64,000 nucleotides of DNA from Coleofasciculus sp. FACHB-1120 (GCF_014698845.1 NZ_JACJTV010000011.1:1-64000), one strand, 5' to 3'; counted from the first letter of the stretch, positions 35,219 through 43,349 are shown. The notes: generated by a model not told the origin, from the letters alone. Numbers and translations: made by a program.

Positions 35219-36586
35219 ATGCCCATCGCTCATATTATCGGTTTAGGAAAATCGGGAATTGCCGCTGCACGGTTGTTAAAACGGGACGGTTGGGCGGTGA
35301 CGATTAGCGATCGCAACTCGTCGGAAAATCTCCGCCAAGAACAACAACAGCTTGCCACTGAAGGCATTGACGTGAAGTTGGGCTATTCCTTGGAACTCAA
35401 CGGTTCCGATTTACCCCAGATGATTGTCGTCAGTCCCGGCGTTCCTTGGGATGCACCGATATTAATAGAAGCGAGGAAGCTGGGTATCGAGACAATTGGA
35501 GAAATAGAACTCGCGTGGCGACATCTCCAATCTTGTCCTTGGCTAGGCATTACTGGCACTAACGGCAAAACTACCACGACAGCTTTAGTTGCTGCGATTT
35601 TTCAAGCGGCTGGTTTCCATGCTCCCGCCTGCGGCAATATCGGCTATGCTGCTGGGGAACTGGCGTTGGCGGAAAAGCCCCCAGATTGGGTAATTGCAGA
35701 ACTTAGCAGCTATCAAATCGAGTCCTCTGCTACAGTTGCTCCGAAAATCGGGGTTTGGACAACCTTCACTCCGGATCACCTCAGCCGTCATAAAACCCTA
35801 GAAAATTACTACAACATTAAGGCACAGCTACTGAGTCAGTCTCAGCAGCAAGTGTTGAATGGAGACGATCCCGAACTGCGAAAGACTGCACGCGATCGCT
35901 TTCCCAATGCTTACTGGACAAGTGTGAGGAAAGCCAATCTGATTGGCGAGAAGGGTTTTTACATCGAAGATGGTTGGGTTGTCGAGACGCAAAATTCGGC
36001 ATCTCTACAAGGTGAAAAGATTGTCCAAGCATCGGTGTTGCGGATGGTAGGAGAACACAATCTGCAAAATCTGCTGATGGCGGTAGCAGCGGCGAGACTG
36101 GCGGGAATTGAGAAAGAGGCGATCCAAGAAGCGATCGCGAACTTCCCCGGCGTTCCCCATCGATTGGAACACATCCGCACGCTGGTGGGAATTGACTTCA
36201 TCAACGACAGCAAAGCCACCAACTACGACGCCGCCCAAGTTGGTTTAGCTTCCGTCACAAGTCCGGCAATTTTAATTGCCGGTGGTGAAGCCAAAGCGGG
36301 GGATGACACCAGTTGGTTAGAGACGATTCAAGCCAAAGCCGCCGCTGTATTACTCATCGGTGACTCCGCATCTGCTTTTGCCCAGCGACTCGAACACGTT
36401 GGCTATTCCAGTTACGAAATTGTGGAAACAATGGAGAAAGCTGTTCCCAGAGCGGCTGAATTAGCTCAAGCTCATGGCGCTAAAGTTGTCTTACTTTCCC
36501 CTGCCTGTGCCAGTTTTGATCAATACCAAAACTTTGAGCAACGGGGCGATGATTTCCGACAACTTTGCCTAGCGTTGCGGCAATGA
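35219..36586 (+). CDS. murD: UDP-N-acetylmuramoylalanine-D-glutamate ligase
   Basis: This Mur ligase adds D-glutamate to UDP-MurNAc-L-Ala in peptidoglycan synthesis. The N-terminal Rossmann part ([15 protein letters not shown]), ATP loop [15 protein letters not shown], the central ELSSYQIE and [14 protein letters not shown] motifs, VPHRLEHI and the C-terminal FINDSKATN and [10 protein letters not shown] motifs are all present. The 455-residue length is normal. The gap before it (35006-35218) contains a GCGCGAAGG-rich dispersed repeat and no gene. Confidence 0.97.
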
Positions 36587-36606
36587 TCCGGAAACATCCT
36601 ACTTCT

Positions 36607-36681
36607 GTAGAGCCGAAGCATTGGCATAAATAAATTATCTTTTGTGAGGAATAATTTCACGCCCGAATGCTTCGCCACTAC
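36607..36681. terminator. Long-arm inverted repeat between murD and DUF1830 gene
   Basis: GTAGAGCCGAAGCATT at the left pairs with AATGCTTCGCCACTAC at the right across about 43 nt. The element lies between convergent genes. The GAAGCATT arms look like a dispersed cyanobacterial repeat; termination is inference. Confidence 0.5.
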
Positions 36682-36739
36682 AATTAAATTTACAAAACAA
36701 AGTGTTTTTGGGTCACGCTTTGATAAATTCCTGTACTGC

Positions 36740-37015
36740 TTAGATCAGTTGAGGTGCCAATTCTTTAACGCGCAGATGATCGCAGGGGATTTTATCCAAT
36801 AGAATTGTTGCGCTCATCATGCCTGTATGAATTTCTAACTGAGCATAGGGCAAGGCTTCAAACAAAAGACGTTCTTTTGGAAAAACAACGCGCTCAAAGT
36901 ACCAATCTGAGATATTTATAATCCTTGCAATCTGAATTTGGTTAGTGGAATTAATATAACAGCAGAGAATTCTATCGGAACAATTAGGAGGGAGAGAATC
37001 AAGTATCTGAGTCAT
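36740..37015 (-). CDS. DUF1830 protein, copy A
   Basis: A 91-residue soluble protein of the cyanobacterial DUF1830 family, with ILCCYINSTNQIQIARI, WYFERVVFPKERLLFEAL and AQLEIHTGMM as its conserved core. Function unknown. It is the distal gene of duplicated unit A. Its paralogue at 40319-40594 is about three-quarters identical by eye, with the N-terminus MTQILDSLP conserved in both. Confidence 0.85.
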   Translation of the reverse strand: MTQILDSLPPNCSDRILCCYINSTNQIQIARIINISDWYFERVVFPKERLLFEALPYAQLEIHTGMMSATILLDKIPCDHLRVKELAPQLI

Positions 37016-37058
37016 AACTGTACTGCTTCCAATCTTAGAAGAATCAATTCGGATTTGT

Positions 37059-37466
37059 CTAGGTAAAACTTAAGAAATCAAGTTTTGAGTTAATTAGGTA
37101 AAAACTCTCATCAGGCATTTTTACCCCAGCTAAATTTGCGCCGTTCAGGTCTACACTATTTAAAATGGCTCCCTGCAAATTAGCTCCAGTCAAGTTAGCT
37201 CGATTTAGTTTCGCCCCCCTTAAATTGGCATTACAGAGATTAGCTTGATTCAAATGTGCCCGACTCAAATCTGAGAAAGTTAAGTCAGCCCCACTTAGGT
37301 TTGCCTCACTTAAGTTCGCCCCCATTAAGTTAGCTCCAATCAGGATAGCTTCACTCAAATCTGCCGCACGCAGGTTAACTCCTTTCAGGTTTACCCCGAT
37401 CAACTTAGCTCGGTAAAAATTCCTTTTTCCGGCTGAATATTGCCTGAGAAGCTCATCAACATACAT
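37059..37466 (-). CDS. Pentapeptide-repeat protein
   Basis: After a short start (ELLRQYSAGKRNFYRAKL) the protein consists of about 17 pentapeptide repeats of the A(D/N)LxX form (for example LSEANLSGADLTFSDLS), predicting a right-handed quadrilateral beta helix. I start at ATG 37466; an in-frame ATG at 37499 adds 11 residues. It has no counterpart in unit B, so it was inserted into unit A or lost from B. Role unknown; relatives include gyrase-protecting and carbon-uptake-associated proteins. Confidence 0.85.
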   Translation of the reverse strand: MYVDELLRQYSAGKRNFYRAKLIGVNLKGVNLRAADLSEAILIGANLMGANLSEANLSGADLTFSDLSRAHLNQANLCNANLRGAKLNRANLTGANLQGAILNSVDLNGANLAGVKMPDESFYLINSKLDFLSFT

Positions 37467-37672
37467 AATACTTAACCCACTTATAAATTGCGCCAACAAA
37501 GATACTTGGAAAACACAACACTACTCAGTTTGTCGTTTAAAATCGCAGCAAAACCAGCTCTGATTTTTCCAACTTTCAGTAGGCAGTTATGATTTACTGC
37601 TCTAGCAATTTATTTACAGGAAACGGGTTAAAAAAGGAGTTCATAGAGTAAAATCTTGGCTTAGGTGAACCC

Positions 37673-37963
37673 TTATTTTTTATCAAGATTAAACTGATAA
37701 ATAGTCATTTTGTTGTATTCATCTTGCATGAATTCATGCAGTATCCAAAACCATTTATCCTGAGATGACCTTCCTCCACAACATTCTGAAACAAGTTTAA
37801 ATGCATCTCTCATTGATACCAGAAACCCATAGTAGTCGATGTTTCCTTCTTTTAGACAATTTTCTCGCCAATAGCCCGTAAGAGCATTTAAAGTGGCTTC
37901 ATCAAGCAGATAAATGTCTTGTTTTTGACTTACATTATATTTCTCGACAGTATCTTTTATCAT
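37673..37963 (-). CDS. Unknown small protein of duplicated unit, copy A
   Basis: No family recognised. The 96-residue protein shares its core with the paralogue at 40710-41027: LLDEATLNALTGYW, YGFLVSMRDA, WFWILHEFMQDEYNKM and QFNLD. It is probably all-helical and cytosolic. Conservation of aromatic and acidic positions in both copies indicates selection on the protein. Confidence 0.75.
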   Translation of the reverse strand: MIKDTVEKYNVSQKQDIYLLDEATLNALTGYWRENCLKEGNIDYYGFLVSMRDAFKLVSECCGGRSSQDKWFWILHEFMQDEYNKMTIYQFNLDKK

Positions 37964-38091
37964 AAATAAACCTCTTTGAAGAATCTCCGAATATTAACCG
38001 ATGAAAATAACCTGAAGAAGCAGCAACGCAGGTAATTTTTGAGTTGTAGCTTGTTCGTTCAACCTTAGTTGCCTGACCTACTTTCGCTCTG

Positions 38092-38232
38092 TCATAGTTG
38101 TAACTTTCGCTTAACTTTGACAAGGATGTTTAGATTTGGCATTTCTTGGTAGCAATAGCTACAAAACCAGTAAATTTTTCCCAAACCGGCATGGCGAACT
38201 AAGGGCTGGGAACAGCAAGGACACGAAGGCAT
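38092..38232 (-). CDS. Tiny zinc-ribbon protein, copy A
   Basis: A 46-residue protein with CPCC near the N-terminus and CSYC about 20 residues later (WFCSYCYQEMPNL), forming a four-Cys zinc ribbon. RHAGLGKIYWF lies between. Its paralogue at 41150-41326 keeps the same core but has Ser in place of the first Cys. The gene lies between the coiled-coil regulator and the 96-residue unknown, on the same strand, about 100 bp from the former. The core resembles small cyanobacterial proteins found near response regulators, from memory. Confidence 0.7.
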   Translation of the reverse strand: MPSCPCCSQPLVRHAGLGKIYWFCSYCYQEMPNLNILVKVKRKLQL

Positions 38233-38334
38233 ATTTCTTTTTTATTCAAACGCTTGATCTGCAACTTAACGTCTAATAGTGAAGAAGTCGGGAAGAAGCT
38301 AAGTTAGATTTAATCAGCGTCATAATTCTTCATT

Positions 38335-38913
38335 TCAGGGGAGGTTTTCTTGGAGGCGATAACCCACGCCATAAACGGTTTCAATCAAATCAGCGGGTGC
38401 GCCTACTGCTTGTAGTTTCCGCCGTAAATGCTTAATGTGAGCCTTGATGGTCTCTTCATGAGGCATTTCTTCAGGCTGCCAAAGGCGTTGAAGAATCTCA
38501 TCTCGCCTCAATATGCAGCGACCCTGTTTCAGGAATAGTTCTAGTAAGCAATACTCTTTCGCAGTTAAATTTAGAGGTTGAGCGGCATAGGTAGCTTCAA
38601 AGGTAGCTGGATTGAAGTGTAAGTCTCCCCAGCTCAACACCGGCTGCAAAGCCGAACCCTCTGAGCACATTAATGTCTTGGCAGAAGCCAATAGCCTTGT
38701 CAGTTTTTCTCGCTCTTGCCTTAGTTTGCTTAGGCTATTTTGTTGAGTTTTCAGGAGCTTGGTTTGCTCAGTTAGCGCTTTTTGTTGTTTTTCATACTTC
38801 TGTTGAGATGAAAGCCGGTTTTTTTGGCTCCTTATCCTGGCTTTTTGTTGTCTTTCACTGTTTTTTGATTGATTAAGAGAGTTATCTGTATCGCTAGTAT
38901 GTGTGAAATTCAT
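38335..38913 (-). CDS. OmpR-type winged-helix regulator with coiled-coil N-terminus, copy A
   Basis: The C-terminal ~100 residues are an OmpR/PhoB DNA-binding domain: LTAKEYCLLELFLKQGR, RRDEILQRLW, EETIKAHIKHLRRKL and LIETVYGVGYRL. There is no receiver domain; residues about 15-70 are instead a Gln/Lys-rich coiled coil. The regulator cannot be controlled by phosphotransfer and probably dimerises through the coil. Its DNA-binding domain is closely similar to those at 39124-39807 and 41429-42034, so all three derive from one ancestor. Confidence 0.88.
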   Translation of the reverse strand: MNFTHTSDTDNSLNQSKNSERQQKARIRSQKNRLSSQQKYEKQQKALTEQTKLLKTQQNSLSKLRQEREKLTRLLASAKTLMCSEGSALQPVLSWGDLHFNPATFEATYAAQPLNLTAKEYCLLELFLKQGRCILRRDEILQRLWQPEEMPHEETIKAHIKHLRRKLQAVGAPADLIETVYGVGYRLQENLP

Positions 38914-39123
38914 TTGTTTTAGGTGTAAACAAAAGCTACACGAGCAGAGTAAAAATTGCGTTACAGGTAGAAGATTTATAGCTGTAACGAGCTTCGATTT
39001 TTAAACCTATCTTTGACGTTAGAGCCAAAAAGTGAACATCTGGGGTTGGGGTGAGACTCAATGGATGGTCTGGAGGACTTGCCTATCCGATGAAGCGATC
39101 GCCCTCGTTTCACTGAACGCTAC

Positions 39124-39807
39124 TTAAACCGAAGACTCTTGTTTCAAGCGATAGCCCAAACCATAAACAGTTTCAATCAAATCAGTCGGGGCACCAATCG
39201 CTTGCAGTTTCTGCCGTAGACGCTTGATGTGGGTTTTGATTGTCTCTTCTTGTGGGATTTCTTCAGCCGGCCAAAGGCGGTCGAGAATCGCACTCCGACT
39301 CCACACCCGGCGACCATTTCGCACGAATAGCTCGATTAAGCGATACTCTTTTGCCGTCAACTCCAGAACATGACCGCCATAGGTGACTTCACAGGTAATC
39401 GTGTTACAGCACAAGCCTTCCCAGTTAAGGATGGGCGGTACCGTCAAACTACCCCGGCGCAGTAAAGCACGGATGCGAGCGAGTAACTCTTGCTGATCAT
39501 AGGGGTAAACAACATAATCATCTGCGCCTGCATCTAATACCATTACCTTCTGAGCAGCGCTATCCTGAGTCGCCACGATGAGGACAGGGGTGCGATCGCC
39601 CATGCACCGCAATTGTCGGCAAAAGTCGATACCGTTCAACTTCGGCAAGCACAAATTCAAGATAATCAAGTCGTAGGGAAAGGTTTGCGATTGCTCCCAT
39701 CCGACTTGACCCTCAGGATAAAAATCAACGACATAATTTTGGTCAACAAGCGCTTGGTATAGGGTTGTAGCAAGGTATTGCTCATCTTCCACTAGCAGAA
39801 TTCTCAT
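39124..39807 (-). CDS. OmpR-family response regulator with degenerate receiver
   Basis: The 227-residue protein has a receiver (1-115) and an OmpR winged helix (130-225). The receiver keeps the N-terminal acidic pair (EDE, 7-9), but the phospho-acceptor position in LIILNLCLPKLNG is Asn51 rather than Asp, and the invariant Lys in DDYVVYPYD is Tyr101. It should not be phosphorylated in the normal way, though the fold looks intact. No histidine kinase is nearby. The start sequence MRILLVEDEQ is mirrored by a stub in unit B (42087-42146). Confidence 0.9.
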   Translation of the reverse strand: MRILLVEDEQYLATTLYQALVDQNYVVDFYPEGQVGWEQSQTFPYDLIILNLCLPKLNGIDFCRQLRCMGDRTPVLIVATQDSAAQKVMVLDAGADDYVVYPYDQQELLARIRALLRRGSLTVPPILNWEGLCCNTITCEVTYGGHVLELTAKEYRLIELFVRNGRRVWSRSAILDRLWPAEEIPQEETIKTHIKRLRQKLQAIGAPTDLIETVYGLGYRLKQESSV

Positions 39808-39943
39808 AGGAGCTTCACTGAAAAAGTGAAAAACTAGGGAAAAGTTGGGTGTTTTCCTAGAGTACCACCAAGAAGCTTAATAAAGCATTGCCCTTTAGCA
39901 TAGGATACAGAAAACGTCAACTATTTTGGGGCAATGCCAGCCG

Positions 39944-40279
39944 TTATTGCCCGAAATTGCTGCCAGCAGATTGTGAGGAGGTGGATGGCTCAGATTCTAG
40001 GCGATCGCTCTCCAATAGTCGAGTTGTCGCGTTCGCAAGCGCATGGTTGCTACGCAACACATCGGGGGTCATGAGACCTTTTAAAGGGACGGGTACGGTG
40101 AAAAGCAGGGGTAAGCCGGGTTGAGCGGATTTTTTAAAAGCGTCTAGCAGTGGCAAGTGTTCGGTGTCCCCAACGACCGCTAGAAAGTCGCCTTTATCGG
40201 TGGGTGGAGTGATGGGCAAACTAGGGGGAAGTTTCTGGCAGCCTGAAGTGTAGCAACCATAGCCCACCATTTCCGCCAA
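39944..40279 (-). pseudogene. Truncated M28 peptidase copy
   Basis: The frame matches the C-terminal third of the intact peptidase at 42279-43349, sharing GDFLAVVGDTEHLPLLDAFK, LMTPDVLRS and SEPSTSS. It has lost the N-terminal catalytic region and carries an internal deletion of about 45 residues just after the SDH-equivalent (here SNH). All but one of the expected metal-binding and catalytic motifs are gone, so it cannot be an active peptidase. Confidence 0.88.
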
Positions 40280-40318
40280 CTTTGCCTTGAGTTACTTTAG
40301 CAATTAGAACTGTAGCAA

Positions 40319-40594
40319 TTAGACAAGCTCAGCCGCCAATTCTTTAATAGATAGCTGATTGCAAGGGATTGTATCCGATAGACTTGCATCAAATATCATG
40401 CCCGTATGAATTTCTAGCTGAGCATTCGGTAACGCTTCAAAGAAAAAACGTTCTTTTGGAAAAACAATCCGTTCAAAGTACCAATTTGGGATATTCGCAA
40501 TCCGAGCAATCTGAATTTGGCTGGTGGAATTGATATAACAACAGAGAATTCTATCAGAAGAATTTGAAGGAAGAGAATCAAGTATCTGAGTCAT
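40319..40594 (-). CDS. DUF1830 protein, copy B
   Basis: The 91-residue paralogue of 36740-37015, with the same DUF1830 core (ILCCYINSTSQIQIARI, WYFERIVFPKERFFFEAL, AQLEIHTGM). Differences are spread along the protein and mostly conservative, consistent with two functional copies after an old duplication. It ends unit B, about 40 bp from the broken peptidase of unit A. Confidence 0.85.
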   Translation of the reverse strand: MTQILDSLPSNSSDRILCCYINSTSQIQIARIANIPNWYFERIVFPKERFFFEALPNAQLEIHTGMIFDASLSDTIPCNQLSIKELAAELV

Positions 40595-40709
40595 AACTAT
40601 CCTACTTTTTTAAGCTGATGATTCATAAATCTGGTTTTGCCGAAAACTCATACCAATTAAGTTGCTAATTTATAAAGCAGGTAATCGGTAATCGGTAATG
40701 TTTTTTTCT

Positions 40710-41027
40710 TTACAGGATAGGGGTAATGCGAAAAGGCTGTCGGCTGTAATCCTTCCTTAACTGGGTGCTTATCCCATCAAGATTAAACTGCTCAACAATC
40801 ATTTTGTTGTACTCATCTTGCATAAATTCATGCAGCATCCAAAACCATCTATCCCGATATGGCGTTCCTTCAGTACATTTTGAACTCAGTTTGTAGGCAT
40901 CTCTCATGGATACAAGGAACCCATATTTATCCATGTTTTCTTCTTTTATACATTTTCTCTTCCAATAGCTTGTAAGAGCATTTAAAGTAGCTTCGTCAAG
41001 CAAAAAAACTTCTTCTCTTCGACTCAT
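40710..41027 (-). CDS. Unknown small protein of duplicated unit, copy B
   Basis: The 105-residue paralogue of 37673-37963. The core LLDEATLNALTSYW, YGFLVSMRDAYKL and WFWMLHEFMQDEYNKM is retained. The C-terminus is longer by about 15 residues (after QFNLDG) than copy A, through loss of the equivalent stop. Function unknown. Confidence 0.75.
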   Translation of the reverse strand: MSRREEVFLLDEATLNALTSYWKRKCIKEENMDKYGFLVSMRDAYKLSSKCTEGTPYRDRWFWMLHEFMQDEYNKMIVEQFNLDGISTQLRKDYSRQPFRITPIL

Positions 41028-41149
41028 ATTTTATTTTCCAACATAATTTGTTGACCTGAATAAACTGCTTTGTCAAACCTTTGAAGATTAACCAAATAGA
41101 TAAATGAAGAAGTACCACCGCAGATAATTTCTTGCTTCTAATTGTTCTC

Positions 41150-41326
41150 TCAACGTGGGTTGCTTAAACTTCTTCGCCTCTGACGGTCTAGTTGTAACCC
41201 AGGCTTAGCTTTGACTAGGGTTATTAAATTTGACATTTCCTGGTAGCAATAACTACAAAACCAGTAAATTTTACCTAACCCGGCATGGCGGACTAAGGAG
41301 CGGGAACAGCAAGGAGAAAAAGGCAT
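41150..41326 (-). CDS. Tiny zinc-ribbon-like protein, copy B
   Basis: A 58-residue paralogue of 38092-38232. RHAGLGKIYWFCSYCYQEM is identical in both copies. The first Cys of the N-terminal pair is Ser here (MPFSPCC), and the C-terminus runs on for about 12 basic residues beyond the copy A stop. The missing Cys may weaken zinc binding, since only CC and CSYC remain. Confidence 0.65.
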   Translation of the reverse strand: MPFSPCCSRSLVRHAGLGKIYWFCSYCYQEMSNLITLVKAKPGLQLDRQRRRSLSNPR

Positions 41327-41428
41327 CTTTATTTCCTCTTCTAAGTCTTGAGCTGCAACTTAACGCCCAAAAGTGAAAAAGTCGGGAAGAATTAAAGTTA
41401 AATTTAATTAGCGCAATAACTCTTAATC

Positions 41429-42034
41429 TCAGGATGGATTATTTTTGAGGCGATAACCTACGCCATAAACGGTTTCAATCAAATCAACGGGAGCGCCTGA
41501 TGCTTGCAGTTTCCAGCGTAAATGCTTGATGTGAGCCTTGACTGTCTCTTCTTGAGGCGTCTCTTCAGGCTGCCAAAGGCGTTCGAGAATTTCATCTCGC
41601 GTCAATATGCAGCGACCCTTTTGCAGGAACAGTTCTAATAAGCGACACTCTTTGGCGGTTAAATCCAGAGGTTGAGAGGCATAGGTGGCTTCAAAGGTAG
41701 CCGGATTAAAGCACAAGGAACCCCACTCTAATACCGATAGCCAGGTTGAAGTTGTTTGATACATTAACGGCTGGGTACGAGGTGCTAGGTGAGGTGCTGG
41801 GTTTTGCCGTTTTTGTAGCTCTTGTTGTCGTGCTATTCGGTAATTTTGTTGGATTTTTCTTAAATCTTCTCGCATTGATGCGGTTCTTAACCGCATTCTC
41901 AGAGATTCTTGGCGCATAGCTACGGCTTTTTGTCTCATTTCCAGAGCTTGTTGCTGTATTTCGCTGTAATATAATTCCGGCGGAAAAGGCTTTTTCTTGC
42001 TCAATTTCTTAGCGTTCATTTGTTTTAGATACAA
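41429..42034 (-). CDS. OmpR-type winged-helix regulator with coiled-coil N-terminus, copy B
   Basis: The 201-residue paralogue of 38335-38913. Residues about 25-75 are a coiled coil rich in Arg, Met and Gln (ALEMRQKAVAMRQESLRMR); the C-terminal OmpR domain (about 100-199) has LTAKECRLLELFLQKGR and the VYGVGYRL end. Like copy A it has no receiver. The coil sequences of the two copies have diverged much more than the DNA-binding domains. Confidence 0.87.
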   Translation of the reverse strand: MYLKQMNAKKLSKKKPFPPELYYSEIQQQALEMRQKAVAMRQESLRMRLRTASMREDLRKIQQNYRIARQQELQKRQNPAPHLAPRTQPLMYQTTSTWLSVLEWGSLCFNPATFEATYASQPLDLTAKECRLLELFLQKGRCILTRDEILERLWQPEETPQEETVKAHIKHLRWKLQASGAPVDLIETVYGVGYRLKNNPS

Positions 42035-42086
42035 ATCAAACTTTGACTAGCTGAGGGTAGAGCTGGATTAGATTTAGAAGATTTAT

Positions 42087-42146
42087 GATCGATTGGGTAA
42101 GGGTTTTCGCAAGACATTGCTCTTCTTGCACTCGCCGAATTCTCAC
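42087..42146 (-). pseudogene. 5' stub of a deleted response regulator gene
   Basis: About 20 codons align with the start of the response regulator at 39807: GTGAGAATTC versus ATGAGAATTC, a shared GAGCAA at codons 9-10 and a common ACCCT at codons 15-16. The translated stub (VRIRRVQEEQCLAKTL) parallels MRILLVEDEQYLATTL. The rest of the gene is gone. The upstream flank with GTGAAAAACTAGGG is also shared (about 42165-42181 and 39827-39841). Confidence 0.75.
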
Positions 42147-42278
42147 CAGGAGCTTGACTTGAAAAGTGAAAAACTAGGGAAAAAGTTGGGTATTCCCCTA
42201 GAGTACCACTTGCAAGTCATTAAAATATTGCTTCTTGCATAAAATCCAAGAAATGTCAATATCAGGCAATATCAGCCG

Positions 42279-43349
42279 TTATTGCCCGAAATTGCTGCCA
42301 GACGATGGAGAAGAGGTGGATGGTTCAGATTCCAGGCGATCGCGTCCCTCTAACAGTCGAGTTGTCGCGATCGCAACGATCCGGGCGGCTCCTTGGAAGA
42401 ACGGTCGATCCAGATTCGTCGGTGTATCGCTGGGCTGATGATAGTGGGGAGTCCGCAGATTCGCTGTATCGGTCAACAGCACTGCACCTACTCCCCGATA
42501 CCAGAACGGCGCATGATCGCTACGCAACACATCGGGGGTCATGAGACCTTTTAAAGGGACGGGTAGGGTAAGAACCAGGGGTAAGCCGGGTTGAGTGGAC
42601 TTTTTAAAAGCGTCTAGCAGCGGCAAGTGTTCGGTGTCCCCGACGACCGCCAGAAAGTCGCCTTTATCGCTGGGTGGAGTGATGGGCAAACCAGGGGGAA
42701 CTTTCTGGCAACCTGGGGTGTAGCAAGCATAGCCCACCATATCCATGACGATGACGCCGCGCAGGTTACTTAAATTCGTCTGCTTTGCGGCAAAGGCAAG
42801 ACTGCCCCGCAGTCCCAATTCCTCTTGGTCAAAGAATGCCAATTGTAACGTCCGGGGAGTGGGGCGGGAACCGAAAAGACGGGCCATTTCCAGAATTACG
42901 GCAACGCCACTGGCATTGTCATCAGCACCAGGAGAACCCGGAACGGTGTCGTAATGGGCGGCGATGAGAACGGTTCCGGCGTTCTTGTCTGTGCCTTTGC
43001 GAGTCGCAACGACGTTGACGCCGCCCTCGAAAGGTTGTAGTTTGGGCGACCAGCCTGATTTTTTGAGGGATTGGGTGAGATATTTGCGAGTGCGATCGCG
43101 TTCTATCTGGGTGTAGCGCTGAAAGTTTAAGGCGTTGACGTGCCCCATCAGCCGCTTTGGGTCTACATTCGGTGCGTTGAGAGGTTTTTCAGACGCCGCT
43201 GCTACGTCAAAATGCTGTACTGGAGGTGCTGGAGTGCTTTCGACCCGGCTTTCGATGACTGGCTGCGATCGCTGCTGAAAGAATTCATGGCTGCTGACGA
43301 CGACTGCGATCGCGACCAGTGCTAACACCGAGACTATCCATTTCCTCAT
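42279..43349 (-). CDS. M28-family zinc aminopeptidase, membrane-anchored
   Basis: The 356-residue protein begins with one hydrophobic segment (MRKWIVSVLALVAIAVVVSS), a signal anchor. The M28 metal and catalytic motifs follow in order: AAHYDTVPGSPGADDNASG (His and bridging Asp), FDQEELGLRGS (catalytic and ligand Glu), VMDMVGY (Asp ligand) and, near the end, TPHYHQPSD (final His). The frame continues upstream to 43475, but that extension would run into the divergent promoter, so I prefer ATG 43349. Substrate unknown; a broken copy lies at 39944-40279. Confidence 0.92.
   Translation of the reverse strand: MRKWIVSVLALVAIAVVVSSHEFFQQRSQPVIESRVESTPAPPVQHFDVAAASEKPLNAPNVDPKRLMGHVNALNFQRYTQIERDRTRKYLTQSLKKSGWSPKLQPFEGGVNVVATRKGTDKNAGTVLIAAHYDTVPGSPGADDNASGVAVILEMARLFGSRPTPRTLQLAFFDQEELGLRGSLAFAAKQTNLSNLRGVIVMDMVGYACYTPGCQKVPPGLPITPPSDKGDFLAVVGDTEHLPLLDAFKKSTQPGLPLVLTLPVPLKGLMTPDVLRSDHAPFWYRGVGAVLLTDTANLRTPHYHQPSDTPTNLDRPFFQGAARIVAIATTRLLEGRDRLESEPSTSSPSSGSNFGQ

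Follow-up and report, generated by a model that had tools for sequence, protein, structure and literature searches.

The window, a 64,000-nucleotide stretch of DNA from Coleofasciculus sp. FACHB-1120, carries on its minus strand, running from 43349 to 36740, two collinear units of one gene cassette, unit B followed by unit A. Unit B encodes an M28 peptidase, the stub of a response regulator (RR), a coiled-coil regulator (CC_B), a zinc-ribbon protein, a small helical protein and a DUF1830 protein. Unit A begins with an M28 fragment and continues with a complete RR, a second coiled-coil regulator (CC_A), a zinc-ribbon protein, a small protein, a pentapeptide-repeat protein and a DUF1830 protein. 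The features, in window coordinates, are as follows.

42279-43349, minus strand: unit B M28-family peptidase, full length (open reading frame, 93% amino acid identity to the congener G001)
42090-42145, minus strand: unit B response-regulator stub of about 19 codons (direct repeat D7, alignment)
41429-42034, minus strand: unit B CC_B, receiver-less coiled-coil/winged-helix regulator (Pfam Trans_reg_C, coil comparison)
41150-41326, minus strand: unit B zinc-ribbon small protein without the invariant Cys4 and Pro32
40710-41027, minus strand: unit B small helical protein of a genus-restricted family
40319-40594, minus strand: unit B DUF1830 (PirC-like) protein, sharing 93% identity with that of G001
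40266-40300, plus strand: remnant of the murD 3′ end (last codons and stop) at the end of unit B
40266-40270, no strand: tandem junction with the 5-nt microhomology ATGGT
39944-40279, minus strand: unit A M28 fragment, 5′-truncated and with an internal deletion at 40008/40039 (D5, D6)
39124-39807, minus strand: unit A RppA-like response regulator with a pseudo-receiver
38335-38913, minus strand: unit A CC_A, receiver-less coiled-coil/winged-helix regulator
38092-38232, minus strand: unit A zinc-ribbon small protein, five of five Cys present
37673-37963, minus strand: unit A small helical protein, family unassigned
37059-37466/37499, minus strand: pentapeptide-repeat protein, unit A only
36740-37015, minus strand: unit A DUF1830 (PirC-like) protein
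35219-36586, plus strand: resident murD, a conserved flank of the site

Homology places the start of the M28 gene at 43349, within an open frame that reaches 43475, and M28 is a conserved neighbour of the cassette site within the family. Repeat families of 236-300 nt with 78-92% identity, together with shorter ones, link the units; with the open reading frames they bear out the tandem arrangement described in an earlier note on this DNA. The broken M28 gene of unit A and the RR stub of unit B were found as described there, and the proposal that the intact parts of the two units are complementary is supported. All genes on its list are present, but the list overlooked the pentapeptide gene of unit A. 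Alignment confirmed that similarity extends outside the coding regions, with intergenic identity of about 69-81% where the units can be aligned, and no third copy of the units was found elsewhere in the genome. Promoter-like sites were no commoner than expected by chance and a scan of the coding strand returned no terminator-like site, so these scans are uninformative on operon structure. Between the unit A DUF1830 gene and murD (36587-36739) lies an imperfect inverted repeat, GTGGCGAAGCATTCGG ... CCAATGCTTCGGCTC, which resembles a small interspersed repeat.

Among protein families, the cassette RR matched RppA (NF041734) best, at 194.6 bits, below the cut-off of 250. In its receiver the phosphoacceptor Asp is replaced by Asn and the Lys by Tyr, both in the window and in G001; in the RR of Kastovskya adunca the same positions hold Asn and Glu. 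These replacements indicate a pseudo-receiver that has lost the residues for phosphotransfer. In the second regulator a 76-residue helix is predicted to replace the receiver. The DNA-binding domains of CC_A and CC_B are 80% identical, whereas their coiled-coil parts share only 27% identity. The idea that the coiled-coil regulator arose by recent local duplication of the adjacent RR was rejected, as the winged-helix tree lacks that pairing. In a distant relative, L204 (G051:C6, 7099-9173) brings together a zinc ribbon, a DUF1830 gene and an RppA-like regulator whose Asp and Lys are both normal; this cluster may be a phospho-competent equivalent of the cassette.

PirC/CfrA and PirN, which regulate how carbon and nitrogen are used, share the DUF1830 domain (PMC13205821, PMC6603209), and PirC/CfrA (Sll0944) is a PII-interacting inhibitor of iPGAM (PMC12077085, PMC6603209). 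The two cassette proteins scored 117.1 and 114.4 bits for this domain (PF08865), whose cut-off is 25 bits; no solved structure for DUF1830 was matched by sequence. They are about 69-74% identical over 85 amino acids to the genome's own PirC-type protein and fall outside the 36-row PirC group (support 84/85, on a short alignment), forming a separate PirC-like group. Divergent DUF1830 genes of the PirN-like kind occur in the family, and their products share only about 46-52% identity with the cassette protein. The genome of the window shows one PirC-type copy and the two cassette copies only; in G001, a PirN-like DUF1830 gene lies beside an nrt-type ABC transporter at L242 (G001:C53, 6589-6870).

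The zinc-ribbon family (CxCC...YWFCxxC.QEMP) was found in 80 of 100 related genomes and scored above the cut-off of no Pfam or NCBIfam model. It occurs near RppA-like regulators in G051 and G064, in the former also with a DUF1830 gene. In unit B, Ser replaces both Cys4 and Pro32, which are invariant in 37/37 homologues. Thus the claim that the small genes are intact in both units fails for this gene, and decay may be under way in at least one small gene. The small helical protein occurs twice, as had been claimed, but its C-terminus differs between the units. Its convincing homologues are confined to the genus (five other matches had E values of 0.003-0.009, several with stop codons), and it therefore appears to be genus-specific; a structure model had a mean pLDDT of 63 and no significant match in the PDB.

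Single-copy versions of the cassette occur in G001, in G004 and in Kastovskya. In G001, which belongs to the same genus, a single unit lies between M28 and murD. In G004, from another genus of the same family, the cassette is degraded: murD and DUF1830 are followed by a 77-codon open reading frame, the pentapeptide and zinc-ribbon genes, an RR in decay and M28. Here, at L195 (G004:C57, 7355-7559), the cassette RR has degenerated independently in a single-copy relative. In G002 and G005, the pentapeptide gene is the sole cassette gene after M28. Kastovskya adunca, from another family (L004 and G018 are one contig), has RR, coiled-coil regulator, pentapeptide and DUF1830 genes at an unrelated site. 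The pentapeptide gene, found in unit A, G004, G002, G005 and Kastovskya, is ancestral to the M28-murD site; G001 and unit B have its absence in common. No pure single-copy B allele was found, the genus being sampled by two genomes, and a literature search found no paper describing this gene set as a system.

The full-length coiled-coil regulator was detected in 3 of 391 genomes of the order. Such a patchy distribution, like the unrelated site of the Kastovskya cassette, could be read as the mark of a mobile or defence-like island that accumulates copies and whose regulators and small proteins have no metabolic role. Yet the genes of both units include no recombinase or transposase open reading frame, no inverted repeats of at least 40 nt surround the units, the M28-murD site is partly common to relatives in the family, and DUF1830 is a known domain of metabolic regulators; we consider an island of this kind very improbable.

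The relative ages of the parts were estimated from synonymous differences. Units A and B differ by 0.354, compared with 0.190 for the flanking genes between the two species; against G001, the matching halves of the units differ by 0.151 and the non-matching halves by 0.383 (non-matching halves versus flanks, p=5e-8). For the M28 fragment against the full-length gene the value is 0.137, which comes from 77 codons only and gives a rough age; it departs from the divergence between the units (p=0.001). The divergence of the fragment is like the distance between the species and unlike that of the units. These values indicate that units A and B diverged before the two species split. As the units lie above the flank divergence and the fragment below it, the join seems to postdate the divergence of the units, whose adjacency is thus probably the later event.

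The structure of the junction bears on how it formed. Past the unit B DUF1830 gene follow 18 nt, the end of murD in reverse (its stop and final codons), and then the middle of an M28 gene. The remnant comprises the last 35 nt of murD and encodes HFRQLCLELL-stop, whereas the C-terminus of the resident MurD differs. Compared with murD of G001 it has 0 mismatches in the first 29 nt and 2 in 35; compared with the resident murD it has six in the same 29 nt. The ATGGT at the join is present in both parents, at the end of murD and in the middle of the M28 gene. Because the end of murD is fused into mid-M28, the joining itself truncated unit A's M28 copy, and the fragment is a scar of the join and not a later loss.

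The earlier note had proposed that single-dose parts were pruned while selection kept the small proteins in two copies. A plain tandem duplication in this lineage, with complementary decay and small genes held at two doses by selection, would be expected to give a collinear order and a microhomology junction, and comparing the units gave dN/dS values of 0.25-0.39 for DUF1830, the small protein and the zinc ribbon. These ratios indicate constraint on the three genes for most of their history, but it mostly accrued before the units adjoined, so that dN/dS cannot show selection for two copies. In a simple duplication all parts would have diverged since the same event, yet pS is 0.137 for the M28 fragment and 0.354 for the units, which places the units but not the fragment before the species split. 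The ancestral pentapeptide gene of unit A is missing from both G001 and unit B, the murD remnant matches G001 and not the resident gene, and the unit B zinc ribbon has lost an invariant Cys. With M28 accounted for by the join, and with the RR also lost independently in single-copy G004, so that its loss is no evidence for dosage pruning, neither the pruning nor the two-copy selection is supported, and a plain duplication is distinctly unlikely.

G001 itself proved to be a mosaic. It is closest to unit A from the M28 C-terminus through RR and CC to the start of the zinc ribbon, and to unit B from the zinc ribbon onward to the end of murD. Informative sites left of the breakpoint number 225 A-matching versus 46 B-matching, and those to the right 50 versus 190; the breakpoint lies within the zinc-ribbon gene (L084, 6924-6936; maximum chi2 198, 0/1000 permutations). 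In trees, the unit B DUF1830 protein (DUF_B) groups with G001 (support 100/99), as does CC_A in the winged-helix tree (93/80), with CC_B outside. The coil of CC_B resembles the Kastovskya coil (z 6.8) whereas that of CC_A does not. Each unit thus retains ancestral traits absent from the other: unit A the RR, the pentapeptide gene and an intact zinc ribbon, and unit B the older coil type.

A tandem duplication before the species split, later collapsed to a hybrid unit in G001 and with gene conversion keeping its M28 copies similar, would explain both the hybrid and a divergence between units above that of the species. A single deletion in a B-A array, however, gives B-5′/A-3′, the opposite of G001, and the native DUF1830-murD join of G001 carries B-type sequence. 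Moreover, the M28 fragment differs by 5.6% from the M28 gene of G001 and by 7.8% from its full-length neighbour; as it is not closer to the neighbour, it bears no sign of conversion toward it, and gene conversion is no explanation. We consider this history unlikely.

Taken together, the data suggest that the tandem pair probably arose by the additive joining of two long-diverged cassette alleles and not by a duplication trimmed for dosage, most likely with a foreign version placed next to the resident cassette; an older duplication followed by exchange between units is a less likely alternative. The gap between M28 and murD would be a variable site holding one copy of a regulator cassette, made up of the pseudo-receiver RppA-like RR, the receiver-less coiled-coil regulator, the zinc ribbon, the pentapeptide protein and the PirC-like DUF1830 protein, with the small helical protein as a genus-specific addition. 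DNA with allele B, ending in a G001-like murD 3′ end, would have been added beside resident allele A, and both the divergence of the units and the murD remnant hint at a different chromosome as its possible source. One side may have joined by homology and the other by the 5-nt microhomology inside M28, cutting one M28 copy. The ATGGT at one end of the added DNA is the microhomology expected of homology-facilitated illegitimate recombination, and this, or an equivalent unequal exchange between chromosomes, is the putative route. The allele that became unit B most likely already lacked a complete RR before the join. By our count, one joining of two alleles takes fewer steps than a duplication with two imports.

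What the cassette does can be proposed only tentatively from homology and domain content. Both winged-helix proteins may set DUF1830 expression without phosphotransfer, if the genes of a unit are co-regulated; the DUF1830 proteins, as relatives of PirC, would probably tune the partitioning of carbon and nitrogen by binding partners; and two coil types could stop the regulators mixing while their DNA-recognition domains stay alike. A bolder version, which we think rather doubtful, has alleles of a PirC-like metabolic switch competing for the M28-murD gap as a swap-in site; phosphorylation-blind regulators with exchanged coils would pair in an allele-specific way, and one cell could carry two versions that share DNA targets without mixing. 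PirC acts as a control point in cyanobacterial carbon storage and is a target of metabolic engineering, and a separate PirC-like group in a regulator cassette, present as two diverged alleles, would offer a natural test of the roles of DUF1830 paralogues beyond PirC and PirN. More generally, what looks like 'tandem duplication with reciprocal losses' in a bacterium can be two alleles joined, which alters the inference of dosage selection.

Several parts of the cassette have counterparts in known systems. RppA is the best family match of the RR, but the cassette protein is below its cut-off and has neither the phosphoacceptor Asp nor the conserved Lys, and the cassette has no kinase. NblR and ChxR exemplify pseudo-receiver or atypical OmpR-family regulators (PMC12632262, PMC3960148); like this class, the cassette RR is of OmpR type without the phosphotransfer residues, and unlike it, the RR is paired with a regulator whose long helix replaces the whole receiver. 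The DUF1830 domain is shared with PirC/CfrA, but the cassette protein lies outside the PirC clade, lacks the C-terminal tail and has another neighbourhood, beside orphan regulators. PirN shares the domain too, but is encoded beside nitrate-uptake genes and binds PsbO, whereas the cassette neighbours are M28 and murD. The arrangement as a whole resembles the orphan immunity-gene arrays of the Vibrio cholerae T6SS, for which growth by homology-facilitated illegitimate recombination has been proposed (PMC5361080). In both, an incoming diverged module would lie beside the resident one, with part of a resident gene displaced at the join. The present case differs in that the module is a metabolic-regulator cassette, that one addition is seen, and that the proposed mechanism is drawn from a 5-nt junction.
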